Shown here one piece after another: positions 50,798-62,318 of a stretch of DNA of 64,000 bases; position 1 is the first letter of the stretch; each line of letters starts with the position of its first letter. The stretch covers positions 38,519 through 102,518 of the forward strand of contig VAWN01000028.1 in assembly GCA_005885555.1 (NCBI GenBank), in the 5' to 3' direction. The notes below the pieces were generated by a model. The model saw nothing but the letters and a program-made list of their open reading frames with translations, was not told the DNA's origin and did not search any database. The DNA comes from Actinomycetota bacterium. GTDB lineage: Bacteria; Actinomycetota; Actinomycetes; Mycobacteriales; Micromonosporaceae. Position numbers and translations under genes: made by a program.

Positions 50798-51157
50798 GTG
50801 GCAGGCGGTGCGGCGCACGGCGCCGGGAACGAGGACCTGTCCGCTGAGGTGCTGCAGACCGCGGCCGCGACGTTCGGCATGCTGGCGGCCACCGTCCGGC
50901 TGCACATCGTGTGGTTGCTGGCCCACGGCGAACGCGACGTGACGTCGTTGGCCGAGGAGGTGGGCACCACCGTGCAGGTGGTCAGCCAACACCTGGCGAA
51001 GCTGCGCCTGGCCGGCCTGGTGCACGCCCGGCGGGAGGGCCGCCGGCAGGTGTACCTCGTCAACGATCCGCACCTCGTCGCCGTCGTCTGGGAGATGGTG
51101 GCGCACCTGCGCGGCCCGTCCCGGCGGGCCGGGGTACGGCATGGCACCGGCCGCTGA
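50798..51157 (+). CDS. ArsR/SmtB-type metal-responsive repressor
   Basis: A 119-residue winged-helix protein: LQTAAATFGMLAATVRLHIV, SLAEEVGTTVQVVSQHLAKL RLAGLVHARREGRRQVYLVN. The last helix contains D-x-H-x10-H (NDPHLVAVVWEMVAHL), resembling the alpha-5 metal site of CzrA/NmtR-type sensors, though the fourth ligand is not evident. It overlaps the following P-type ATPase gene by 17 bases, so it probably controls it. A divalent transition metal is the likely signal, which is notable because the pump looks Mg-type. Confidence 0.85.
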   Translation: MAGGAAHGAGNEDLSAEVLQTAAATFGMLAATVRLHIVWLLAHGERDVTSLAEEVGTTVQVVSQHLAKLRLAGLVHARREGRRQVYLVNDPHLVAVVWEMVAHLRGPSRRAGVRHGTGR

Positions 51158-54100
51158 GCCGGCCACCGCTGCGGCGCACGAGGCGACACCGGCGCCGGTA
51201 CCGCAGCGGTTCGCGCGGTTGCGGGACCTTGCCGCGATGGCGCCGTTGCAGGTGCTGCGGGAGCTCGGCTCGTCACTGCACGGCCTGGACGAGGGCGAGG
51301 CGCAGCGGCGGCTGGCCACCCGCGGGGAGAACGTGCTGCTGGCCGCGCCGCCGCGCGGGTACCTCGCGCGGGCGCTGGCCGACCCGTTCGTGGTGGTACT
51401 GCTGCTGGTGGGCGTGGTGTCCGCGGTCAGCGGCGACCCGGCCACGGTGACGGTCGTCGCGGTACTGGCGTCGGTCGCCTGCGGGTTGCGGGTCAGCCAG
51501 GAGTACCGGGCGGGTCGTGCCGCGGCGGCCCTGCGCGGCCTGGCCGCGACGACCACGACGGTGCTGCGCCGCGCCGCTCCCGCAGTCCCGGCGATCGCCC
51601 GGGAACTGCCCACCGACCAGCTCGTCCCGGGCGACGTGATCCAGCTCGCCGGCGGCGACGCGGTACCGGCCGACGTCCGGCTGCTGCGCTCGACCGGCCT
51701 GACCGTCAGCCAGGCGCTGCTGACCGGCGAGTCACTACCGGTCGCCAAACACGCCACGCTGACCGACACCGGATCCCTCGCGGACACCGCACCGGTCGAC
51801 CACCCGCGGCTGTGCCTGCGCGGCGCGACCGTGGTCGGCGGGCGGGCCACCGGCGTGGTCGTGGCCACCGGTACCGACACCTACTTCGCGGCGGGCGACC
51901 ACGACCTGCCGAGCCGGCGCGGCCGCAGTGCGTTCGACCGCGGCGTGACGGCCGTCTCCTGGACGCTCATCCGGCTCATGCTCGCCGCGGTGCCGCTGGT
52001 GCTGCTGCTGACCGGGTTCACCCGGGACACCTGGGTGCAGGCCGGCCTGTTCGCGGCCGCCGCTGCGGTCGGCCTGGTACCCGGGATGCTGCCGGTGGTC
52101 ACCACCACCGCGCTGATCCGCGCGCATGCGGTACTGCGCGGCCGGGGTGTCGTCGCCAAACGGCTGCCGGCGATCCACAACCTCGGCGCGATGGACGTGT
52201 TGTGCATCGACAAGACCGGTACCCTCACGCTGGACCGGCTGAGCGTCACCTGCTACCTCGACCCGCTGGGCCGGCCCGACCCGCAGCCGTTGCGCCACGC
52301 GTACCTCGCCGCCCGGTTCGGCATCGAACACACCGACCCACCGGTGCCCGACGCCGTCGACGAGGCGCTGCTGCACCGGGCCGGGCAGCTCGACCTCGCC
52401 GGTGACGACGGGCTGAGCGGGATCGACGCGCTGCCGTTGGACGCGAGCCGCCGGCGCACCACCGTCGCGCTGCGCCAGGCCGGGCGGTGGGGACAGGAAC
52501 TGCTCATCACCAAGGGTGCGGCCGAGGACGTGCTGGACTGCTGCGCGCGTGCCCGCATCGGCGGCCGGGACGTCGCGCTCGATGCCGGGCAGCGGCACCG
52601 GTTGCGGCGCCTGGCCGACCGGCTGCACGCCGACGGTACCCGGGTCCCCGCGGTCGCCGTCCGCACCCGGCCGGTCCGGGGACGCCGGCTGCGTCCCGCC
52701 GACGAGGCCGGGCTGACCCTGCTCGGGTACGTCGGCCTGCTCGACGAGGCCAAGCCGAGCGCGGCGGGGACACTGGCCGCGCTGGGCCGCCGTACCACCG
52801 TTTTCGCCCGCGTCGACGCCGGGCAGAAGGCCCGCATCGTCGCGGCGTTGAAGGCGGCCGGGCACACCGTCGGGTACCTCGGCGACGGCGTCAACGACGT
52901 ACCGGCCCTGCACGCCGCCGACGTGGGCGCCTGCGTCGAAGGCGCGGCCGAGATCGCCCAGGAGTTCAGCGACGTGGTACTCGTCGGCAAGGACCTGGCG
53001 ATCCTGGCCGGCGCGGTCAGCACCGCGCGGCACGCGTTCGGCAACATCGTCAAGTACGTGAAAATCACCGTCTCGGCCAACGTCGGCAACGTGTGCGCGG
53101 CGCTGGCGGCGAGTGCGACGCTGCCGTTCCTGCCGATGCTGCCGATGCAGATTCTGGTGCAGAACCTGCTGTTCGACGTCTCGCAGCTGTCGCTGGCCTT
53201 CGACCGCACCGATCCGGACCGGCGCCCGCGTACCTTCGACACCCGGGACCTGAGCCGCTTCGTGCTCTGCTTCGGCGCCGTCAACGCACTGGCGGACCTG
53301 GCGACCTTCGCGGCGTTGCGGCACACCGCCGGGGCGGCGTTGAGCCCGGCGGCGCAGGCGCTTTTCCACACCGGCTGGTTCGTGGAGAACCTGTTGACGC
53401 AGGCGGTCGCGGTACACCTGTTGCGCAGCCGGACCCGGTCGTGGGCCGCTCGCCCGGTGCTGCTTACCACCGCCGGCATCGTGCTGTTCACCGCGGGCCT
53501 GGTGGTCGGCCCGGCCGCCGGGTCGCCGGGCCTGCACGCCTTACCCGCGGCCTACCGCGTCTGGCTCGGGTTCTTCCGGTTGTCCTTGGCCGCCTGCAGG
53601 TTGCTGATCAGGTCGTGCAGCGGCTTGGTACCGCCGCCGATCGCCAGTCCGGTCACCAGGATGTCGAGCGCGTGCCGGATGCCGGCGGCGTTCAGCGTGC
53701 CCGCCCAGGTACCGTCCGCCGAGAGTCCGTCGGACTGCAGTCCGATGACGTGCATGAGGTACAGCCCGAGCGTGGCGCTCAGCAGCAGGCCGATACCGGT
53801 GGCCAGCGCCCAGTACGCGACGGCCTTGTCGGCGCGCCGCTGGTCCAGTTCGGCCTGTGCCGCGGCGGCCAGCTTGACCGCGGCCCTGCGGCACACCGAC
53901 GGAGCCTCGTCCGGCGACACCTTCAACACGTCGGCGAGCGCCTGCCGCATGGTCCCCGCGTCGCGCCCGCCGGCGTCGACGGCGGCTTCCACCGCCTTCT
54001 TCAACCGCTCGTGCGCGGTGGCCACGCCGTCGGCGGCGGCGTTGCGCCGCAACGCACCACGGCCCGCCGGTTGGTCCTTGGCCTTGCCCTGCAGGTCATC

Positions 54101-54269
54101 GGCCGCCCGCCAGGCCTCGACCAGATCGGTGAGCGTGGCGGGCAGCGCCTCGTCGGAGGTGCCCTCCAGGTTCACCGCGCACGCCACGTTGGCATTGCGC
54201 TGCTGGGAATGCCGCTTGGTGCTGAAGAAGAACGACGACACCGGTTCGAGCAGCCGCTCCACGCCCTGA
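51141..54269 (+). CDS. MgtA-like P-type ATPase with antisense C-terminal extension
   Basis: A P-type ATPase of the magnesium-translocating (MgtA) branch. Motifs: LVPGDVIQLAGGDAVPADVR, LLTGESLPVAKH, phosphorylated Asp357 in CIDKTGTLTLDRL, KGAAEDVLDCC and GYLGDGVNDVPALHAADVG. The end of the pump domain is the MgtA-type LPFLPMLPMQILVQNLLFDV SQLSLAFDRTDPD and PRTFDTRDLSRFVLCFGAVN. Family similarity stops at about residue 805 (LHALPAAYRVWLG), losing roughly the last 20-25 residues. The frame then runs 240 codons antisense through the next gene to 54269, a tail with no protein-like character. The pump may be intact enough to work or may be a decaying gene. Confidence 0.75.
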   Translation: MAPAAEPATAAAHEATPAPVPQRFARLRDLAAMAPLQVLRELGSSLHGLDEGEAQRRLATRGENVLLAAPPRGYLARALADPFVVVLLLVGVVSAVSGDPATVTVVAVLASVACGLRVSQEYRAGRAAAALRGLAATTTTVLRRAAPAVPAIARELPTDQLVPGDVIQLAGGDAVPADVRLLRSTGLTVSQALLTGESLPVAKHATLTDTGSLADTAPVDHPRLCLRGATVVGGRATGVVVATGTDTYFAAGDHDLPSRRGRSAFDRGVTAVSWTLIRLMLAAVPLVLLLTGFTRDTWVQAGLFAAAAAVGLVPGMLPVVTTTALIRAHAVLRGRGVVAKRLPAIHNLGAMDVLCIDKTGTLTLDRLSVTCYLDPLGRPDPQPLRHAYLAARFGIEHTDPPVPDAVDEALLHRAGQLDLAGDDGLSGIDALPLDASRRRTTVALRQAGRWGQELLITKGAAEDVLDCCARARIGGRDVALDAGQRHRLRRLADRLHADGTRVPAVAVRTRPVRGRRLRPADEAGLTLLGYVGLLDEAKPSAAGTLAALGRRTTVFARVDAGQKARIVAALKAAGHTVGYLGDGVNDVPALHAADVGACVEGAAEIAQEFSDVVLVGKDLAILAGAVSTARHAFGNIVKYVKITVSANVGNVCAALAASATLPFLPMLPMQILVQNLLFDVSQLSLAFDRTDPDRRPRTFDTRDLSRFVLCFGAVNALADLATFAALRHTAGAALSPAAQALFHTGWFVENLLTQAVAVHLLRSRTRSWAARPVLLTTAGIVLFTAGLVVGPAAGSPGLHALPAAYRVWLGFFRLSLAACRLLIRSCSGLVPPPIASPVTRMSSACRMPAAFSVPAQVPSAESPSDCSPMTCMRYSPSVALSSRPIPVASAQYATALSARRWSSSACAAAASLTAALRHTDGASSGDTFNTSASACRMVPASRPPASTAASTAFFNRSCAVATPSAAALRRNAPRPAGWSLALPCRSSAARQASTRSVSVAGSASSEVPSRFTAHATLALRCWECRLVLKKNDDTGSSSRSTP

Positions 54270-54499
54270 GCGACCGCGAACAGCATCCCGAACAGGCTGA
54301 TCCCGGCCGGAATCACCAGCGTCGTCGGCCTGAACCTCGCGTTGACGAACACGCTGAGCAGCCAGACGAGGATCAGGGCGGCGAAGCTCGCCACCACGAC
54401 CTGCCAACGCGGTGTGGTACCCGTCGTGTCGGACGCAGCCGCGTTGACGCCGGGCTCCGCGCCGTCGCGGCCGGGACTCTCCACCTGTACCAGTGCCAT
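53552..54499 (-). CDS. Membrane protein of the CHAT/subtilase locus
   Basis: A 315-residue protein with three to four transmembrane helices: about 33-52 (VVVASFAALILVWLLSVFVN), 60-80, and a pair near 225-245 and 270-285. Between the two groups is a roughly 120-residue charged helical region (EALPATLTDLVEAWRAADDL, DEAPSVCRRAAVKLAAAAQA ELDQRRADKAVAYW) that probably lies in the cytoplasm. The first about 30 residues are acidic/polar. No family is recognised. It is the last gene of the sigma/subtilase operon and its end overlaps the MgtA-like tail on the other strand. Confidence 0.7.
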   Translation of the reverse strand: MALVQVESPGRDGAEPGVNAAASDTTGTTPRWQVVVASFAALILVWLLSVFVNARFRPTTLVIPAGISLFGMLFAVAQGVERLLEPVSSFFFSTKRHSQQRNANVACAVNLEGTSDEALPATLTDLVEAWRAADDLQGKAKDQPAGRGALRRNAAADGVATAHERLKKAVEAAVDAGGRDAGTMRQALADVLKVSPDEAPSVCRRAAVKLAAAAQAELDQRRADKAVAYWALATGIGLLLSATLGLYLMHVIGLQSDGLSADGTWAGTLNAAGIRHALDILVTGLAIGGGTKPLHDLISNLQAAKDNRKNPSQTR

Positions 54500-54583
54500 C
54501 TGTCACGTTCCTCCGGCAGCAGCGTGGACTTGTTGCAGGAGAAGACGAACGGGCAGCGGGCGGTGATACAGCGGCGGCGGTCG

Positions 54584-55036
54584 CTACACGGACACCCAGT
54601 CGGTGAGCACCCGGATGCCGGTCGAGGTCTCGCAGTACAGCCGGAAGGGTGCCAACGGTCCGGACAGCACACTGAAGCGGCCGAGGTCGTCGACCGGTAC
54701 CGTGGCCAGCAGCCGGGTGCGGGTACGGAGCTGTACCGTGCCGGACTGCGGGGGTACGAACTGACCCAGCAGGCCCTCCGGTCCGATGTCCACCTCGATC
54801 GTGAGGCTCGGCGCCTCGAAGCTCAGCGCGCGTACCGCCGTGGACCCGCCGCCGCGCGCGCCGACCGCTTCCAGATCGTCGGCCGAGTCCGCCGACAACA
54901 CGGCGAGTTCGGCGTCGATGGTGCGCCACGTGTACGCGTCCTTCGCGGCCGAGACCATCGGCTGCGGAACGTCTTCCCGCAGCGCCGCACCGAGTTCGGT
55001 CAGCAGGAGATCGTCGTCGAACAACCACTCAGCCAT
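54584..55036 (-). CDS. Soluble protein coupled to the ECF sigma factor
   Basis: A 150-residue protein: an acidic N-terminal segment (MAEWLFDDDLLLTELGAALR) and helix YTWRTIDAELAVLSADSADD, then a beta-rich half (ALSFEAPSLTIEVDIGPEGL, TVQLRTRTRLLATVPVDDLG, PLAPFRLYCETSTGIRVLTD). Its start overlaps the sigma factor stop by eight bases (ATGGCTGA). Such partners of ECF factors in CHAT/subtilase loci are common in actinomycetes and probably regulate the sigma factor, although no anti-sigma zinc motif is visible. Confidence 0.7.
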   Translation of the reverse strand: MAEWLFDDDLLLTELGAALREDVPQPMVSAAKDAYTWRTIDAELAVLSADSADDLEAVGARGGGSTAVRALSFEAPSLTIEVDIGPEGLLGQFVPPQSGTVQLRTRTRLLATVPVDDLGRFSVLSGPLAPFRLYCETSTGIRVLTDWVSV

Positions 55037-55658
55037 CGGTTCCTCCCGACGGGCCGTCGCCGGCGGTGGCCGGCTCGGCGTCGAGTCGCGATACCGCGGT
55101 GCCCAGCGCCGCCAGCGCGGGCATCCGGCGCAGTCGCGCCAGGCAGCGTGCCCGACTGGGGCCGATACTACCGATCGGAATGCCCATCACTTTGCCGATC
55201 TCCTCGTAGGGGGTGGGGGGATCGTGGGTCAGCAGCCGCAACAGGTGCCGGCACTTCTCCGGTAACTGCGCGAACGCGTGGCGCAGGGCGGCGCGGCGTT
55301 CGGCCCGCAGCAGGTGCACGTCGATGTCCTCGGCGTCGATCGCGTCCGGCGCGGCCAGGTCCGCAGGTAGCGCGTCCCGGCCGCGCCGGCTCTCCTGCTT
55401 CACGACGTCGAGGCACTCGTGCCGGGTCGTGGTGGCGAGCCAGCCCGGCAGCGCCTCGCTGTTGCGCAGTCTCGGCAGATGCTCCACCAGGTGCAGCCAG
55501 ACGGTCTGGCTGACGTCGTACCGGTCGGCATCGCTGAGCCGGAACCGCCGGCAGATGGCGAAGACCAGACCGGCGTACCGGTCGACGATCGCGTCCCACG
55601 CGGCGCGTTCGCCGTTGCGCGCGCCGTCGACCAGTTCACCCAGTGGCCTGTCGTCCAT
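55029..55658 (-). CDS. ECF sigma factor
   Basis: A 209-residue sigma-70 family factor: region 2 (AAWDAIVDRYAGLVFAICRR FRLSDADRYDVSQTVWLHLV EHLPRLR) and region 4 (LPEKCRHLLRLLTHDPPTPY EEIGKVMGIPIGSIGPSRAR CLARLRR). Belongs to the actinobacterial group with the W-L-x-T-T-x-R-H-E-C motif (LPGWLATTTRHECLDVVKQE). It is the second gene of a four-gene minus-strand operon, 24 bases after the subtilase stop, and is expected to drive this locus in response to an unknown signal. Confidence 0.9.
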   Translation of the reverse strand: MDDRPLGELVDGARNGERAAWDAIVDRYAGLVFAICRRFRLSDADRYDVSQTVWLHLVEHLPRLRNSEALPGWLATTTRHECLDVVKQESRRGRDALPADLAAPDAIDAEDIDVHLLRAERRAALRHAFAQLPEKCRHLLRLLTHDPPTPYEEIGKVMGIPIGSIGPSRARCLARLRRMPALAALGTAVSRLDAEPATAGDGPSGGTDG

Positions 55659-55682
55659 CGGTCACCGATCCACGAATTGTCG

Positions 55683-56828
55683 TCAACGGGGCGGGAGCAG
55701 GCTGTGCAGCGCCTCTGCGGGACCGCCGTCACGCCGGATCCCGGCCGCCAGGGTTCCGCTCACCCGGGCCGCCGCGAACGACGTACCGCTCCAGGTGGCG
55801 AAGCCACCGAACGGCCCGATCGGCGAGTCGTCCGGCCTTTCCGGTACCCGGGCCTTGTCGGGAAGGTAGGTACTGACCACGTCCTTGCCGGGCGCCATCG
55901 TGTCGACCCACGGCTGCGTCAGGTCCGGGCTCCACGGTTGCCGCACGCCGCTGTCGTCCGTGGCGCCGACCGCGACGACTCTCTCGAACGCGGCCGGCCA
56001 TACCGGCTTGTTCCAGTCCTTCGTCTTGCCGTGGTTGCCGGCCGCGGCGACCACGACCACCCGGGGATCGAGCCTGCCGATCGCGGTGCTGAGCACCAGC
56101 GGCGGCTTGTTGTCGTCGGTGAAGCAGCCGAAGGACAGGTTGAGCACGTCCAGGCCGGAGTCGGCGAAGAGCACCAGTTCCTTGGCCACGTTCCAGCTGT
56201 CGCCTTGCGCGTCCCGGTCGAGCACCTGGCGAACCTCCAGCGTCGCTTCCGGTGCCTGCCGCAGGATGAGGCCGGCCACGAAGGTGGCGTGTCCGAGCGC
56301 GTAGTGCGGTTCGTCGCCCGGGTCCTCGTACAGCGCCGACTGTGCGGCGAGGTACGTGCCGGCGTACCACGGATGCGTGTACAGCGCCGTGTCGGCGATC
56401 CCCACCCGCACGCCGCGGCCCGCCCCGGGCCCCCGCTGCGGGAGGTCTTCCTTGGCCTGCATCGGCGGCAGTTCCCCACCGCCACCGATGTTGTGGCTGC
56501 CGATCACCGGCAGGACCGCACGGTTCTTGCCGATCGACGGTACCCAGCCGGAGTACCGGTCTTCGAAGTAGCTGTACAGGAGGTTCAGCACGCCGTCGAG
56601 CTTCGGCCTGTCGACCAGGTCCTGCTGGTTCCGCCACTGTTCGGCGGCGGCACCCACCTGGTCGGGATCCAGCTTGAGAAGGGTGAGCCCCAGCTCGGGG
56701 GAGTCATCGCTGCCGGTGGGGATGACTCCATAGTCACCAAGTTTGTCCAATACCTGACCCAGGTGCGGCGTCGCCACCACGAGTTGGTCTTCGTCCGCCT
56801 GTTTGCCCTGGTCGGCGCTGTCGGTCAT
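55683..56828 (-). CDS. S8 subtilisin-like serine protease, intracellular
   Basis: A 381-residue subtilase with the complete triad: Asp in VRVGIADTALYTHPWY, His in HYALGHATFVAGLILR, Ser in FATWSGTSFAAARVSG; the oxyanion Asn is in VVVAAAGNHGKTKDW. There is no signal peptide or membrane segment, so it should stay in the cytosol. The first 120 residues (LVVATPHLGQVLDKLGDYGV and a helix LKLDPDQVGAAAEQWRNQQD) are typical of subtilases coded next to CHAT and sigma genes. Possible role: intracellular proteolysis of a target or activation cleavage together with the divergent CHAT protease. Heads the operon. Confidence 0.9.
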   Translation of the reverse strand: MTDSADQGKQADEDQLVVATPHLGQVLDKLGDYGVIPTGSDDSPELGLTLLKLDPDQVGAAAEQWRNQQDLVDRPKLDGVLNLLYSYFEDRYSGWVPSIGKNRAVLPVIGSHNIGGGGELPPMQAKEDLPQRGPGAGRGVRVGIADTALYTHPWYAGTYLAAQSALYEDPGDEPHYALGHATFVAGLILRQAPEATLEVRQVLDRDAQGDSWNVAKELVLFADSGLDVLNLSFGCFTDDNKPPLVLSTAIGRLDPRVVVVAAAGNHGKTKDWNKPVWPAAFERVVAVGATDDSGVRQPWSPDLTQPWVDTMAPGKDVVSTYLPDKARVPERPDDSPIGPFGGFATWSGTSFAAARVSGTLAAGIRRDGGPAEALHSLLPPR

Positions 56829-56854
56829 CAGTCGCTCCTCTCGGTGCCCGGGGA

Positions 56855-56880
56855 GCTGTGTTCCTCTGGCTTAACACAGC
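56855..56880. promoter_or_regulatory. Inverted repeat between the subtilase and CHAT genes
   Basis: GCTGTGTT (56855-56862) and AACACAGC (56873-56880) form perfect 8-bp arms with a 10-base spacer, 27 bases from the subtilase start. It lies in the only promoter region shared by the divergent halves of the locus, so it is a candidate regulatory site or sigma-dependent promoter. Confidence 0.45.
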
Positions 56881-56976
56881 CCGGACAAACTTGGAAGACT
56901 GCCGGCCGGTGGCCGTGATACACCAATTTCTTGGCAACACCTCACCACGATCCTCGATCAGCGACGGAGGCCTCGG

Positions 56977-59643
56977 GTGGACGGGTGCCAGGTAGGTGAG
57001 GACGCGGTCCTCGCGCTGAAGCTTGTCGACGTTGATCCCCGGCGTGCCTGGAAGCAGGCCTGGGAGCTGATGTCCCGCAGCCGCCTGGACCGCGACCACG
57101 CGACCGCCTCGGTGGCCGCCCGCGCCGCGGGCCTCGCCGCGCTGCACATGACCAACCTCGACACGGCGGTGGAGCTGCTCACGCAGGCCGTGGCCAGCGC
57201 CCGGCGCACGCATTCGGCGCGGCTGGTGAGCGAGGCGCTGATGAGCCTGGCCTTCATCCTGATGCGGCGCGGCAACACCCGGCGCGCGCTGCGGACCATC
57301 GACGCCGCACTCACCGACCTGACCGGTGTCGACCGGGCGCGGGTACTCGCCCAGCGCGGCGCGATCAGGCAACAGCTCGGACACCTCGACGAGGCACTGG
57401 CCGACTACCGCGCCGCCATGCCGACGCTGCGCCGCGAGCAGGACTGGACGTGGGTGCAGCGGGTGCACTCCAACCGCAGCGTGCTGTACATCTACCGGTC
57501 GCAGCTCGGGCCGGCCGCGGTCGAGCTGCAGTCGGCCGAGGCGGTCTGCCGCCGGTACGGGCTGCACCTGCAGCTCGCCTTCGTCTACGACAATCTGGCG
57601 TTCCTGCATGTCCGGCGGGGCGACGTGCCGGCCGCGCTGCACTGGCTGGACGCGGCCGAACAGGGCCACACGTCGCTGGGCGCGCAGGCGGGTGCGGTAC
57701 TGCTGGATCGCAGCGAGCTGCTCATGTCGGTGGGCCTGGTGGCCGAGGCGCGGGCGACCGCGGTACGTGCCGTCGAGGAGTTCACCCGGCTGCGGCGGCA
57801 GATCCTGTTGCCGCAGGCGCAGCTGCTCGTGGCCGAGACGGCGCTGCTCGACGGCGACGCGACCGCCGCGCGCACCGCAGCCGAGGCCGCGATCCGCGCG
57901 TTCCGGGCGCAGCAGCGGCCCGAATGGGTCGCGCTGGCACGGTACACGGCGCTGCGCTGCCGGCTGCGCGATGCGTGCGGCGAGCCGGTGACGGTACCCG
58001 ATCTCGCGCGCGCCGCCACCGCACTCGACTCGGTCGGGTGGACCGTTCCGGCGATGGACGCCCGGCTGGTCGCCGCCCGGCTCGCGCTGGAACAGGGCGA
58101 TGCGCGACGCGCCGAGAGCCTGCTGCGCCGCACCGGTGCGGTACGTCGGCGTGGACCGGTCGAGCTGCGCGCCCGCGCCTGGCACGCGGAAGCGTTGCGC
58201 CGCCTCGCGCAGGGCAGCCGCCGGTCGGCGGCGACGGCGCTGCACGCGGGTATCCGGGTTCTTGAGGACTACCAGGCCACCCTGCCGGCGGCCGACGTGC
58301 GCAGCACCGTGTCCGGCCACCGGGCCGACCTGGTCGAGCTGGGACTGCGCCTGGCGCTGCGCAGCGGCCGGCCGCGGCGGGTACTGGTGTGGGCCGAACG
58401 CGGCCGCGCGACGGCACTGCTCATGCAGCCGCTACGGCCGCCCGACGATCCGGTGCTGGCGCAGCTTCTCGTCGAGCTGCGCGCCGCCGTCGCGCAGATC
58501 GAGGCGGCCCGGACCGCCGGGCGCACACCGGACGGTCTGATCAGCCGGCAGTCGGGCCTGGAACGGGCCATCCGCGACCACGTCCGTGCCCTGCCGGGCG
58601 CCACGGTGACCGCCCGGCGCCCGACCGCGGACGAGATCGGCAGCGCGCTCGGCGACGCGGTACTGGTCGAGTACGTGGAGCACCGGGACGCGTTGTTCGC
58701 GGTCACGATCGCCGGATCCCGCGTCCGGTTGACGCCGCTGCGGCCGACGGCCGGGGTGCACGCGCTGCTCTCGCACGTGCCCTTCGCGCTGCGCCGGCTG
58801 GCCCGGCGCAATCCGGGCCGGCCGGCGGACGCCCGCGCCGGCGCCGCGATGCAACTGCTCGACGACGCCGGTACCCGGTTGGACGACCTTCTGCTGCAAC
58901 CGTTGCGGCAGCAGATCGACGGGCGACCGATGGTGATCGTGCCGACCGGCCCGCTCCAGTCGATCCTCTGGGGCGGCCTGCCCTCGTGTGCCGGACGGCC
59001 GGTGAGCGTGGCTCCTTCGGCGGCGCTGTGGTACCAGGCCGCCACCGCCGATGCCCGGCCCGGACACGTCGTCGTGGCGGCCGGACCGGAGCTGCCCGAG
59101 GCGCCGGTGGAGGCGGCCGCGGTGGCCGCGCTGTACCCCGGTGCGCGGCTGCTCACCGGAGCGGGCGCGACGGTCGGCGCGGTGAAGGCGGCGCTGGGCG
59201 ACTGCAGCGTGGCACACGTGGCGGCGCACGGCCGGTTCCGTTCGGACAACCCGCTGTTCTCCTCGCTGCGCCTGGTCGACGGTCCGCTGACCGTCTACGA
59301 CCTCGACTCGCTGCCACGCGCGCCGGCCGTGGTGGTACTGGCGGCGTGCGACGGCGGTACCTCGCTGGTCTCCGCCGGTGACGAACTGCTGGGCCTGGCC
59401 GCCGGGTTCCTCGCGCACGGGGCGACCGCGCTGGTGGGTCCGCTCGGACCGGTGTGCGACGGGGCGATGGCCGACCTGATGATCGAGCTGCACAAGGAAC
59501 TGCGCGCCGGTACCCCACCGGCGACCGCCCTCGCCCGGGTACAGGATGCGGTGTCGCAGGGACCGCCGGCGATGCGCGCGGCCGCCGCGAGCCTGGTGTG
59601 TCTCGGCGCCGGGCACGCCGCGGTACCGGTCAGAGCAGCTTGA
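56977..59643 (+). CDS. TPR-CHAT domain protease-like protein
   Basis: An 888-residue protein. Residues about 20-490 are tetratricopeptide-like helical pairs (RALRTIDAALTDLTGVDRAR, LGHLDEALADYRAAMPTLRR, GDVPAALHWLDAAEQGHTSL). The C-terminal CHAT domain (about 600-885), a caspase-like cysteine protease fold, has its His in SVAHVAAHGRFRSDNPLFSS and the Cys in VVVLAACDGGTSLVSAG, with the usual start MVIVPTGPLQSILWGGLPS. GTG start with ACGGAGG six bases upstream. It is divergent from the subtilase/ECF sigma operon. The TPR part is expected to sense or bind a partner and the CHAT part to cleave a protein; target unknown. Confidence 0.95.
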   Translation: MDGCQVGEDAVLALKLVDVDPRRAWKQAWELMSRSRLDRDHATASVAARAAGLAALHMTNLDTAVELLTQAVASARRTHSARLVSEALMSLAFILMRRGNTRRALRTIDAALTDLTGVDRARVLAQRGAIRQQLGHLDEALADYRAAMPTLRREQDWTWVQRVHSNRSVLYIYRSQLGPAAVELQSAEAVCRRYGLHLQLAFVYDNLAFLHVRRGDVPAALHWLDAAEQGHTSLGAQAGAVLLDRSELLMSVGLVAEARATAVRAVEEFTRLRRQILLPQAQLLVAETALLDGDATAARTAAEAAIRAFRAQQRPEWVALARYTALRCRLRDACGEPVTVPDLARAATALDSVGWTVPAMDARLVAARLALEQGDARRAESLLRRTGAVRRRGPVELRARAWHAEALRRLAQGSRRSAATALHAGIRVLEDYQATLPAADVRSTVSGHRADLVELGLRLALRSGRPRRVLVWAERGRATALLMQPLRPPDDPVLAQLLVELRAAVAQIEAARTAGRTPDGLISRQSGLERAIRDHVRALPGATVTARRPTADEIGSALGDAVLVEYVEHRDALFAVTIAGSRVRLTPLRPTAGVHALLSHVPFALRRLARRNPGRPADARAGAAMQLLDDAGTRLDDLLLQPLRQQIDGRPMVIVPTGPLQSILWGGLPSCAGRPVSVAPSAALWYQAATADARPGHVVVAAGPELPEAPVEAAAVAALYPGARLLTGAGATVGAVKAALGDCSVAHVAAHGRFRSDNPLFSSLRLVDGPLTVYDLDSLPRAPAVVVLAACDGGTSLVSAGDELLGLAAGFLAHGATALVGPLGPVCDGAMADLMIELHKELRAGTPPATALARVQDAVSQGPPAMRAAAASLVCLGAGHAAVPVRAA

Positions 59644-59870
59644 TAGCGTGTCGGCGCCGTACCGTTCGCGGTTGCCTGATCGAGCGAGCGATTCCGGATC
59701 GGCACGGGTTTCGCGGACCGCGGCGGCTTTCGGCCCACCCGCCCATCCGGCACCCGGTGCATCCGCCGATCCGTTCGTGTTGATTCCGTTTTGTTTCCTC
59801 GACGTGGTCTGTGCCGGATCGCTAGCCTCGACCGGAATCCGGCTGTACCGCGTAACGGAGGCGATCGCGC

Positions 59871-61601
59871 ATGGTCTCGCCGCACTGTCACCGTTCGCCG
59901 GACGATCTGGGCCGGCGGGGCCTTGCCCGGCTGGAGCGGTACAACACCGACGGGGACGCCGAAGCGCTCGCCGACGGGTTGGCTCTGATGACCGAGGCGG
60001 TCGCCGCGGCACCCGTGCATCCGCAACGCATGCGATGGTGGTACGGGCTGGGATCGGCGTACGAGAGCCGGGCCGACGAGCTCGGTTCGATCGACGACTA
60101 CGACCGCGCGATCGGGTGGTACGCGCGGATCCATGCGCAGCTGGCGCCGACCGATCCGGACCGCACCTTCATCGCGCTCGCGTTGACCGGCGCGCACTGG
60201 AGCCGGTTCTGGCTGTTGCGCTACGGCGGCGCCGGGGAACCGGAGGACTGCGCCGCGCTGGTCGAGGAGCTGCTCGCCGCGATCGCTCGGTACCCGGTCG
60301 GCGACTGGGATGTGGAGGCGGCCGCGTTCGTGCGGATGATCCAGGGACTGGCGTGGGAGGAGCGGTACCAGGCCGGTAGCGATCCCGCCGACCTCGACCG
60401 CGGCATCGTGCTGCTGGCCGGTGCCGTGCCCGTGCTGCCCGACGACACACCGTGGCTCGCCGTCGCCGCGTTCACCCTCGCGACCGCGTACTGGGACAGC
60501 TACGGCCGCACCGGGGTACCGCGGGAGCTGAACCTCGCCATCGCGATGGACGCGCGCGCGATGGAGCTTTCCGCCGAGGAGGACCCCACGTGGCTGTCCG
60601 CGCACGAGCACGAGGCGCTGTGCCTGGCGACCCGGTGGCGCCGCGACGGCGTCCGCGGCGATCTGGACCGGGCGATCGCGTCGTGGCGCGTGGCGCTGTC
60701 CCGGGCCGAGGACGCCTGGTCGGCGGGGCTGGGCGGCGAGCTGATCCGCGAGCGTGCCGAACTGGACGCGGATCCGGTCGCCGCGGGCGAGGCGGTGCGC
60801 CTTCTCGAATACGCGGTGCGCGCCGCGGGGGAGGGCGCCACCGGTGCCGGGTACCGGTTGGAACTCGGCCGGGCGCACCGTACACAGTGGACGGTCGGCG
60901 GTACGGGCGGCGGCCTGGAGGCGGCCGAGCGGTGCTTCACCGAGGTGCTGGCGTCGGGGCTGCCCGATCACGAGCCGGTCGTCGACGCCGCGCTACGGGA
61001 GCTGGCGCAGCTGGCCCAGCGGTACCACGACCGTGGCGTGCTGGCCCTCGCCGCGGCGGCGACCGACGGCGATGCCAAGGGTTTGTCGGACCTGGCCGCG
61101 GCGGCCCGGATCAGCGCCACGGTCCTCGCGCGCACCGGTGCCGACGATCCGCGGCGGGTACCGCTGCTGCTGCTGTCGGTCCTCGCGCGCTGGGCCCGCT
61201 TCGCGCACACCGGCGATGCGGGCGGGTTGCCCGTGCTCGACCGGTTGACCGCGGAACTCGTTGCGGCGCAACCGGTTGCGGGAGAGCTGCGGGACGCGGC
61301 GGTGCTGCTGCGCGGTGCGCTGCTCGCCGCACTCGTCACCCGGGACCGGTCCGCGGCGACGCCGGAACGGACCGCCGAACTGCGCGCGGCGCTGCACACC
61401 CTCGGCACCCTGGGCGGCGCCGACCGGACGGTACCCGACTGGGTCCACCACCTGTTCCCGATCGACCAGGGGTTCATCGCCATGGACCGGTTGCGCGACC
61501 AGTTCGGCGAGTTAGCCGATGCCGACCCGGACGGCGCCCAGCGGACGGTCACGATGACCATCGGTGAGCTGATGGCGCAGGCCGGGCGAGCCGGGACGTG
61601 A
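59871..61601 (+). CDS. TPR-like helical repeat protein without CHAT domain
   Basis: A 576-residue helical protein with repeats of the kind normally found in front of CHAT domains in actinomycetes: GDAEALADGLALMTEAVAAA, LGSIDDYDRAIGWYARIHAQ, DPADLDRGIVLLAGAVPVLP, GVPRELNLAIAMDARAMELS. No His/Cys CHAT motifs follow; it ends GELMAQAGRAGT. CGGAGG precedes the ATG by about nine bases. The 227-bp upstream gap (59644-59870) contains an A/T-rich stretch around 59775 suited to a promoter. It may act as a partner or sensor for the adjacent TPR-CHAT protein, and is followed by a CRP-family regulator three bases downstream. Confidence 0.8.
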   Translation: MVSPHCHRSPDDLGRRGLARLERYNTDGDAEALADGLALMTEAVAAAPVHPQRMRWWYGLGSAYESRADELGSIDDYDRAIGWYARIHAQLAPTDPDRTFIALALTGAHWSRFWLLRYGGAGEPEDCAALVEELLAAIARYPVGDWDVEAAAFVRMIQGLAWEERYQAGSDPADLDRGIVLLAGAVPVLPDDTPWLAVAAFTLATAYWDSYGRTGVPRELNLAIAMDARAMELSAEEDPTWLSAHEHEALCLATRWRRDGVRGDLDRAIASWRVALSRAEDAWSAGLGGELIRERAELDADPVAAGEAVRLLEYAVRAAGEGATGAGYRLELGRAHRTQWTVGGTGGGLEAAERCFTEVLASGLPDHEPVVDAALRELAQLAQRYHDRGVLALAAAATDGDAKGLSDLAAAARISATVLARTGADDPRRVPLLLLSVLARWARFAHTGDAGGLPVLDRLTAELVAAQPVAGELRDAAVLLRGALLAALVTRDRSAATPERTAELRAALHTLGTLGGADRTVPDWVHHLFPIDQGFIAMDRLRDQFGELADADPDGAQRTVTMTIGELMAQAGRAGT

Positions 61602-61604
61602 CGG

Positions 61605-62318
61605 ATGGAGCCGCCGCTGCCGCCACGGTGGGCACCGGGCAGCTTCCTCGCCCGGCTGTCTCCGGAGCAGGTGGCCGAGTTGCTCCAGACCGGTGTGCGC
61701 CACCACTTCGAACCGGGGCGCCCGCTGCTGTGGGAAGGCGATCCGAGCACGCACGTCGAGATACTCGTCCGCGGGTTTGTGAAGATCACCATTCTGGTCG
61801 ACGGGATCGAGGTGCTCGTCGGCATCCGGGTGTCCGGTGACCTCATCGGCGAGATGGCCGGGTTGAGCCAGAAACCCCGCAGCGCGACCGCGACGGCGTG
61901 CGGCCGGGTCACCTCGGTGGTCCTCACCCAGGCGAACTTCCACCGGTTCCTGCACCGGTACCCGGAAGCGGCGCTCAGCATGGCGGCGGCGGTGGGGGAG
62001 CGGCTGCGCTGGGCGACCGAGCGGCAGACCGAGTTCGCCGCGTTCCCCGCGGAGATCCGCCTCGCCCGGGTACTGGTCGACATCGCCTGGAGTTGCGGCC
62101 AGCCGACCGAGGAGGGCCTGACCATCGCGGTCGCGCTGAGCCAGCCGGAACTGGCCACGATGATCGGCGCCTCCGAGGCCACCGTGCAGAAGGTGCTGCG
62201 CGAGCTGCGCGAGAACGGCATCATCCGCACCGGGTACCGGCGCATCACGGTGGTCGATCTCCCGGCGCTGCGCTCGCTGGGCGAGGGCAGTGACCAGTGG
62301 CGGACACTCACCGGCTGA
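61605..62318 (+). CDS. CRP/FNR-family transcriptional regulator
   Basis: A 237-residue regulator: N-terminal cNMP-type beta-roll (HHFEPGRPLLWEGDPSTHVE ILVRGFVKITI, VSGDLIGEMAGLSQKPRSAT) and a C-terminal winged helix (VALSQPELATMIGASEATVQ KVLRELRENGIIRTGYRRIT). The phosphate-binding cassette GEMAGLSQKPRSATATA is reasonably complete, so cAMP or a similar ligand is possible. Begins three bases after the TPR protein stop, so it should be on the same transcript. Confidence 0.9.
   Translation: MEPPLPPRWAPGSFLARLSPEQVAELLQTGVRHHFEPGRPLLWEGDPSTHVEILVRGFVKITILVDGIEVLVGIRVSGDLIGEMAGLSQKPRSATATACGRVTSVVLTQANFHRFLHRYPEAALSMAAAVGERLRWATERQTEFAAFPAEIRLARVLVDIAWSCGQPTEEGLTIAVALSQPELATMIGASEATVQKVLRELRENGIIRTGYRRITVVDLPALRSLGEGSDQWRTLTG

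Follow-up and report, generated by a model that had tools for sequence, protein, structure and literature searches.

What do two unlike proteases, a subtilase and a caspase-like CHAT protease, do beside a single sigma factor, and on which protein do they act? This question is raised by a 64,000-nucleotide stretch of DNA (hereafter the window) from an Actinomycetota bacterium of the Micromonosporaceae (GenBank assembly GCA_005885555.1, contig VAWN01000028.1, positions 38,519 to 102,518 of the forward strand), in which the genes of an extracytoplasmic function (ECF) sigma factor, a subtilase, and a TPR-CHAT protease lie together with that of a 150-residue protein, named here 'small'. A preliminary description, made from the DNA letters alone, had seen in this locus a stress-triggered proteolytic cascade or a conflict system, with a membrane protein, a second, CHAT-less TPR protein, and a CRP regulator as further parts, and had stated that no partner of the kind known for other CHAT proteases is present. 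We found the genes where it had placed them, with an intact subtilase triad and no visible signal peptide on the window's subtilase, an ECF sigma factor, a membrane protein, and an intact CHAT domain. Its statement about the partner is probably wrong, as 'small' is the likely substrate; this partner, the lack of conservation of the TPR and CRP genes, and a promoter motif had all been missed.

Conservation and distribution of the four genes

The preliminary description had left it to relatives to decide whether the CHAT gene is truly linked to the subtilase and sigma genes. This linkage is conserved across the Actinomycetota to a degree well beyond chance, all four genes (subtilase, sigma, 'small', and TPR-CHAT) being found in 89 of 112 non-redundant actinobacterial loci, where they occur in several orders and orientations. 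Eight of the 112 loci carry the subtilase and 'small' without a separate sigma gene, eight carry sigma and 'small' without a subtilase, and the remaining ones are broken by contig ends. The loci are related by descent, so that these counts are not fully independent, and their genes were called with a simple codon-usage caller. The window's genome contains six CHAT matches, three of them in paralogous cassettes with a subtilase, a sigma gene, and 'small'. A TPR-CHAT relative is present in 43 of 61 genomes of relatives, and a scan of 84,980 species genomes yielded 527 stretches encoding one, the best 80 of which are all from Actinomycetota, including Acidimicrobiia and Nitriliruptorales/Egibacteraceae.

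The association extends to genes that are not adjacent. Among 119 sampled Actinomycetota genomes, 'small' occurs in 13 and a CHAT protein of the same type in 14, and 13 genomes have both (Fisher p = 1.8e-16); 'small' is never found there without CHAT, unlinked cases included. In two genomes (G176 and G144), the sigma-'small' pair lies far from the subtilase-CHAT pair or on another contig; because both pairs are present all the same, the tie between them is functional and goes beyond neighborhood. Seven cassette copies (L093, L098, L100, L102, and L104-L106) keep the subtilase, 'small', and CHAT without a neighboring sigma gene. All seven genomes carry another copy with a sigma gene, and the sigma factor can therefore act in trans in them. 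Herbidospora mongoliensis, the source of L093, has a pair of cassettes in facing orientation (L258/L264), their 'small' genes being adjacent and convergent.

Judged from their recurrence, CHAT, subtilase, sigma factor, and 'small' are one functional module. No other cassette is accompanied by a relative of the membrane protein, the CHAT-less TPR protein, or the CRP protein. Because neither this TPR gene nor the CRP gene recurs, a system spanning the whole region was rejected. The membrane protein is outside the conserved core and looks to have a sigma-type promoter of its own.

'Small' as a candidate anti-sigma factor

'Small' has no Pfam family of its own. Sixteen of 45 homologues show a weak match to CarboxypepD_reg (PF13620), a β-sandwich and not a peptidase, which probably explains the published label 'carboxypeptidase'. 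In the AlphaFold2 (AF2) model of 'small' (predicted local distance difference test, pLDDT, 86.8), two N-terminal helices are joined by a linker of lower confidence to a C-terminal sandwich that is predicted well. A sole position, the linker arginine R61, is invariant in the aligned homologues (117/117), in the midst of poorly conserved neighbors. R61 is followed by Ser, Gly, or Ala in 107 of the 117 sequences (91%), as against 290 of 1285 for the other arginines (p = 1.5e-51, a value that is overstated, since the sequences are related). R61 followed by Ser, Gly, or Ala is a strong signature of the kind expected of an arginine-specific cut site for a CHAT protease resembling separase or Csx29; separase cuts after Arg. 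The arginine is kept in lineages without a nearby subtilase gene (L049 and L052-L054), which points to CHAT as the protease that would cut there.

At one locus (L064:10596-11456, minus strand), a degenerate ECF sigma factor and 'small' are naturally fused into a single protein of 286 residues, which argues for a physical contact between the two. The overlap of the two genes in the window points the same way. Taken with the predicted cut site, the fusion makes 'small' a candidate soluble anti-sigma factor. The search for a solved relative by structure gave only common immunoglobulin (Ig)-like folds at or near noise (Z no greater than 8.9 over 71 residues). The B. subtilis intracellular proteinase inhibitor, which stood among the tied rows, is not counted as evidence, and weak Shiga-toxin model matches to one 'small' homologue (E = 0.006) were taken as noise.

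The two proteases and the sigma factor

The TPR-CHAT protein matches PF12770 (E = 2e-33) and carries the His-Cys dyad of the clan CD CHAT proteases, H751 and C791, both invariant in 27/27 and 38/38 CHAT sequences. No membrane segment was called in it. The best structural matches of its AF2 model (pLDDT 88.6, predicted template modeling score, pTM, 0.83) are the Csx29 chains (Z 29-33) and, over 326 residues of the protease part, separase (Z 28). The transmembrane anti-sigma factor DdvA is matched with Z 22-23 and by profile (E = 3.9e-8), so that two of these three fold relatives are tied to sigma control. Loop 793-801, just past C791, is the lowest-confidence part of the model; this is weak evidence but would suit an active site that becomes ordered only upon activation. 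D828, considered as a separase-like S1 aspartate, is Asp in only 33/38 and 20/27 sequences and was not used as evidence.

The subtilase matches PF00082 (E = 1.5e-23) and, below the cut-off of that family, TIGR03921 (E = 1.5e-27). Its D146, H180, and S350, together with N265, are invariant in 27/27 homologues. Some homologues (L058, L059, L061, and L063) bear N-terminal signals (SRRRLL...) resembling those of twin-arginine translocation (Tat), and one group may thus export its subtilase. The sigma factor matches TIGR02937 (E = 7.8e-20; 71.1 bits versus a cut-off of 42.9), has both regions expected of an ECF factor, and has ECF relatives of solved structure. By gene context it is a putative member of the ECF54 group, whose described neighborhood is recovered in the 89 four-gene loci and in the CarboxypepD_reg matches of 'small'.

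A shared promoter motif and a variable cargo slot

An ECF-like promoter motif, TGTATCA-N16/17-CTC, lies upstream of the subtilase-sigma-'small' operon in many lineages. Of 77 subtilase/CHAT spacers, 33 contain GTATCA on the strand of the subtilase (shuffled spacers, 1.1 expected and 6 at most; other strand, 0), with CTC[T/C][G/T] sitting 16 or 17 bases downstream. In G144, where the sigma gene is unlinked, the motif stands ahead of this gene as well as of the subtilase, and in G101 it stands ahead of a 'small' gene without an adjacent sigma gene. Sites of the strict form TGTATCA-N16/17-CTCYRT number 17, spread over 12 of 16 whole genomes of 5-14 Mb (reversed control, 1), and those that were followed up are all cassettes or cassette cargo. 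The motif was first spotted by eye in the spacers and then counted, the whole-genome scan and the cargo test given below being the more independent checks. We infer that the sigma factor itself uses a TGTATCA-type promoter. A relaxed pattern, applied to the window's genome to reveal a wider sigma regulon, gave 34 sites versus 16 for the reversed control and was too noisy to name targets. Instead of GTATCA, spacers from Lentzea/Saccharothrix loci (e.g., L112, L120, and L130) share another conserved stretch, GATCAAGCTACCACA, which may point to a different promoter specificity.

The same motif precedes 21 of 266 immediate cassette neighbors versus 3 of 770 genes located at least three genes away (p = 2e-10). 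Among the immediate neighbors, the reversed and complemented control patterns are found 0 times and once, respectively, and the bases outside the search pattern agree between the core and cargo sites. The motif-bearing cargos are mostly unrelated to one another between lineages: haem peroxidases (PF03098) in Nonomuraea and Acrocarpospora; a patatin (PF01734), a cyclase, and secreted proteins elsewhere; and, in the window's own family, Catellatospora included, the operon of a contractile injection system (sheath, tube, hub, wedge, and baseplate). This operon lies downstream of CHAT (L060:11283-19000; L160, L162, L062, and L057), with the motif 35-74 nt before its first gene. From these positions, the module appears to switch on different adjacent genes in different species.

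In the window, the membrane protein, with a motif copy ahead of its gene, looks like a variable sigma-controlled cargo of this copy and not like a core part. The family to which its C-terminal ~100 residues belong, small membrane proteins sharing a GTKPLHDLI motif, is common in related genomes (window; L236-L249). Elsewhere, a secreted-looking DUF6345 protein (L059:10917-12797, plus strand) is a motif-bearing cargo, and a 344-residue protein, patatin-like by eye, is encoded directly after 'small' at L077, 26 nt downstream.

Organization of the window locus

The features of the locus are collected in Table 1. On the minus strand, the order of transcription is subtilase, sigma factor, 'small', and membrane protein, with the start of 'small' overlapping the sigma stop. 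The TPR-CHAT gene is divergent from the subtilase gene at a spacing of 148 bp and is followed downstream by the TPR-like and then the CRP gene. The frame of a P-type cation ATPase (window positions 51141-54269, plus strand) remains open past the likely gene end and runs antisense across the membrane-protein gene.

Table 1 Features of the locus, in positions of the window
Feature	Position	Strand	Remarks
TPR-CHAT protease, 888 aa	56977..59643	+	TPR-like helical superhelix, then separase/Csx29-like protease region; dyad H751/C791
Subtilase, 381 aa	55683..56828	-	mycosin-like S8 domain 137-361; first gene of the operon
ECF sigma factor, 209 aa	55029..55658	-	regions 2 and 4
'Small', 150 aa	54584..55036	-	two N-terminal helices, flexible linker, C-terminal Ig/CarboxypepD_reg-like β-sandwich
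R61 codon of 'small'	54854..54856	-	predicted protease cut site, R61 then [S/G/A]
ECF-like promoter motif GTATCA-N16-GTC	56897..56921	-	93 nt upstream of the subtilase start
Second motif copy GTATCA-N17-GTC	54544..54569	-	spacer between 'small' and the membrane protein, 70 nt upstream of the membrane-protein start
Membrane protein, 315 aa	53552..54499	-	three hydrophobic stretches; proposed sigma-controlled cargo
CHAT-less TPR-like gene	59871..61601	+	without Pfam match
CRP gene	61605-62318		just beyond 61601, where the preliminary description ended the locus

Proposed mechanism and alternatives

The best model, to which we give slightly better than even odds, is a CRISPR-independent, protease-gated sigma switch with an interchangeable output. 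In the resting state, 'small' would keep the ECF sigma factor inactive, probably by means of its N-terminal helical half. A signal, presumably read by the TPR superhelix, would activate the CHAT protease, which, as the sequence signature suggests, would cut 'small' after the linker R61 and free the sigma factor. The latter would then transcribe the subtilase-sigma-'small' operon from the promoter recognized by comparison of spacers, in a positive feedback, and also the adjacent lineage-specific cargo gene or operon indicated by the motif. The subtilase would be a second, sigma-induced protease, probably clearing fragments or serving the output, and a few lineages do without it. The best reading remains a proteolytic cascade governed by a sigma factor, as the preliminary description had imagined it, and the stress or death response that went with it is compatible with the association with injection systems in some relatives. 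The module is a strong candidate for the trigger of a widespread stress or death response. It is a tentative proposal, with chances somewhat short of even, that a TPR-CHAT sensor cutting an anti-sigma factor at one arginine, and a freed sigma factor driving swappable effectors, make up a general stress or death platform in actinobacteria.

Several observations weigh against the protease-gated switch. No Pfam or NCBIfam anti-sigma domain, such as those of the class I (zinc-binding or RseA-like) factors, was found in the 45 'small' homologues, and the structure comparison covered mainly residues 68-150; by sequence, 'small' has no relative in the PDB, Csx30 included. In Csx30, the cut falls at residues 427-429, and no residue proved essential by itself. 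'Small' is retained in the seven loci that have no adjacent sigma gene, and the place of the subtilase in the pathway is uncertain because some of its homologues carry the Tat-like signals. The promoter is not universal: GTATCA is missing from 44 of the 77 spacers, many of them from one Lentzea/Saccharothrix group, in which promoter recognition must for that reason differ. The motif is also missing from the subtilase/CHAT spacer in two of the three cassettes of the window's own genome, and from the majority of the genes adjacent to cassettes.

The published view of ECF54, stated from genome context (PMC8999054), is that no anti-sigma factor exists, that the proteases degrade the sigma factor directly, and that a carboxypeptidase is the third protein. 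In favor of this view, the sigma gene usually has both proteases close by. However, 'small' matches the CarboxypepD_reg β-sandwich and not a peptidase, the cut-like signature lies in 'small' itself, and 'small' is once fused to the sigma factor and tracks CHAT even without an adjacent sigma gene; we consider direct degradation unlikely. The wiring could also be different, with the subtilase cutting 'small' at R61 and CHAT acting elsewhere, e.g., on the cargo. The subtilase often heads the sigma operon, and Arg-cutting S8 enzymes (kexins) exist. However, CHAT matches the fold of separase, and proteases of that fold are known to take Arg at P1; every sampled genome that has 'small' also has CHAT; and R61 is conserved where no subtilase gene is near, which leaves this wiring rather improbable. 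It is also improbable that 'small' is a positive cofactor or adaptor of the sigma factor (or R61 a binding residue), proteolysis then ending the response. The sigma-'small' fusion is equally compatible with such a role, and the cassettes that retain 'small' without sigma speak for it, whereas a lone invariant arginine in a variable, flexible linker, followed by Ser, Gly, or Ala, is more in keeping with a cut site than with a binding surface, and in the known precedent the partner, Csx30, acts as an inhibitor.

The same parts could also form a dedicated anti-phage (abortive-infection) system, which would overlap with the protease-gated switch and differ from it in the trigger. In its favor are the variable cargo, a protease of the caspase type, and the precedent that Csx29, Csx30, and their sigma factor set in CRISPR immunity. 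Against it, PADLOC recognized no system and returned only a generic subtilase model, weak BovA matches on CHAT, and cNMP/HTH matches on the CRP protein; no cassette was found in the viral contigs or phages searched; and some copies adjoin housekeeping-type genes (menD-like and cytochrome-c-biogenesis-like, named by eye). A phage- or plasmid-borne origin was rejected, the single match in a plasmid collection sitting in an 11.85-Mb, evidently chromosomal record. The conflict or phage-defense role raised in the preliminary description was not borne out by these searches, and we regard a dedicated anti-phage system as an unlikely account. That the genes are chance neighbors deserves almost no credence, being refuted by their recurrence in 89 of the 112 loci, the three paralogous copies in one genome, and their co-occurrence when unlinked.

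Comparison with known systems

The core neighborhood is not new. No literature was found on CHAT with a subtilase and a sigma factor as such; the ECF54 group surfaced in a review (PMC8999054), the accessible part of which reports a conserved carboxypeptidase, subtilase, and CHAT protein near ECF54 sigma factors and suggests that these are controlled by proteolysis, with no anti-sigma factor involved. The window's module resembles that group in having an actinobacterial ECF sigma factor beside a subtilase, a CHAT protein, and a 'carboxypeptidase', and one of our loci, L091, is from Geodermatophilus, the genus of the example in PMC8999054. A cut site, the sigma-'small' fusion, the promoter motif, and the variable cargo were not found in that part of the review, and the primary papers may hold some of them. 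What the present analysis adds is the assignment of 'small' as a candidate anti-sigma factor and substrate, its predicted cut site, its fusion to sigma, the promoter motif, and a slot for variable cargo. These points narrow the control of ECF54 factors, so far an observation on genome context, to one predicted residue of 'small', one candidate protease, and one putative promoter, and the motif offers a way to find effectors through their promoters.

One of the several motif-bearing cargos, that of the Catellatospora-type loci, is the operon of a contractile injection system. The cytoplasmic contractile injection systems of Streptomyces mediate stress-linked cell death, and control by a sigma factor or CHAT was not seen in the accessible parts of the two reports (PMC12237407, PMC10066040); the proposed switch, if true, may be a control route for such systems in some relatives. 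Eukaryotic separase likewise combines a helical repeat with a caspase-like protease fold, but has another substrate and setting, and no functional relation is implied. DdvA (PDB 8rot and 8rw5) is a TPR-CHAT protein tied to an ECF sigma factor; it is itself the membrane anti-sigma factor, whereas here a separate small protein is the candidate for this role.

The closest parallel is the type III-E CRISPR system (Craspase), in which an ECF sigma factor is inhibited by Csx30, the target of Csx29; the cut, in a flexible loop of Csx30, is thought to free CASP-sigma (PMC10028731). Both systems have a TPR-CHAT protease of the same fold (Z 29-33), a partner protein, and an ECF sigma factor. They differ in sequence, the identity being 11-14%: the window's TPR-CHAT protein scores 18 bits against a cut-off of 300 for the Csx29 family NF041237 and is not a member, 'small' has no sequence relation to Csx30, and a subtilase is added here. 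No Cas7-11 or CRISPR gene recurs beside the cassettes and the window's neighbors read as other families, although no search was aimed at Cas7-11 or arrays. By analogy, our best model is that the module would work like Csx29, Csx30, and their sigma factor, independently of CRISPR. If this is true, proteases of the caspase/separase type would switch transcription in actinobacteria independently of CRISPR, a point of relevance to how the logic shared with type III-E systems arose.

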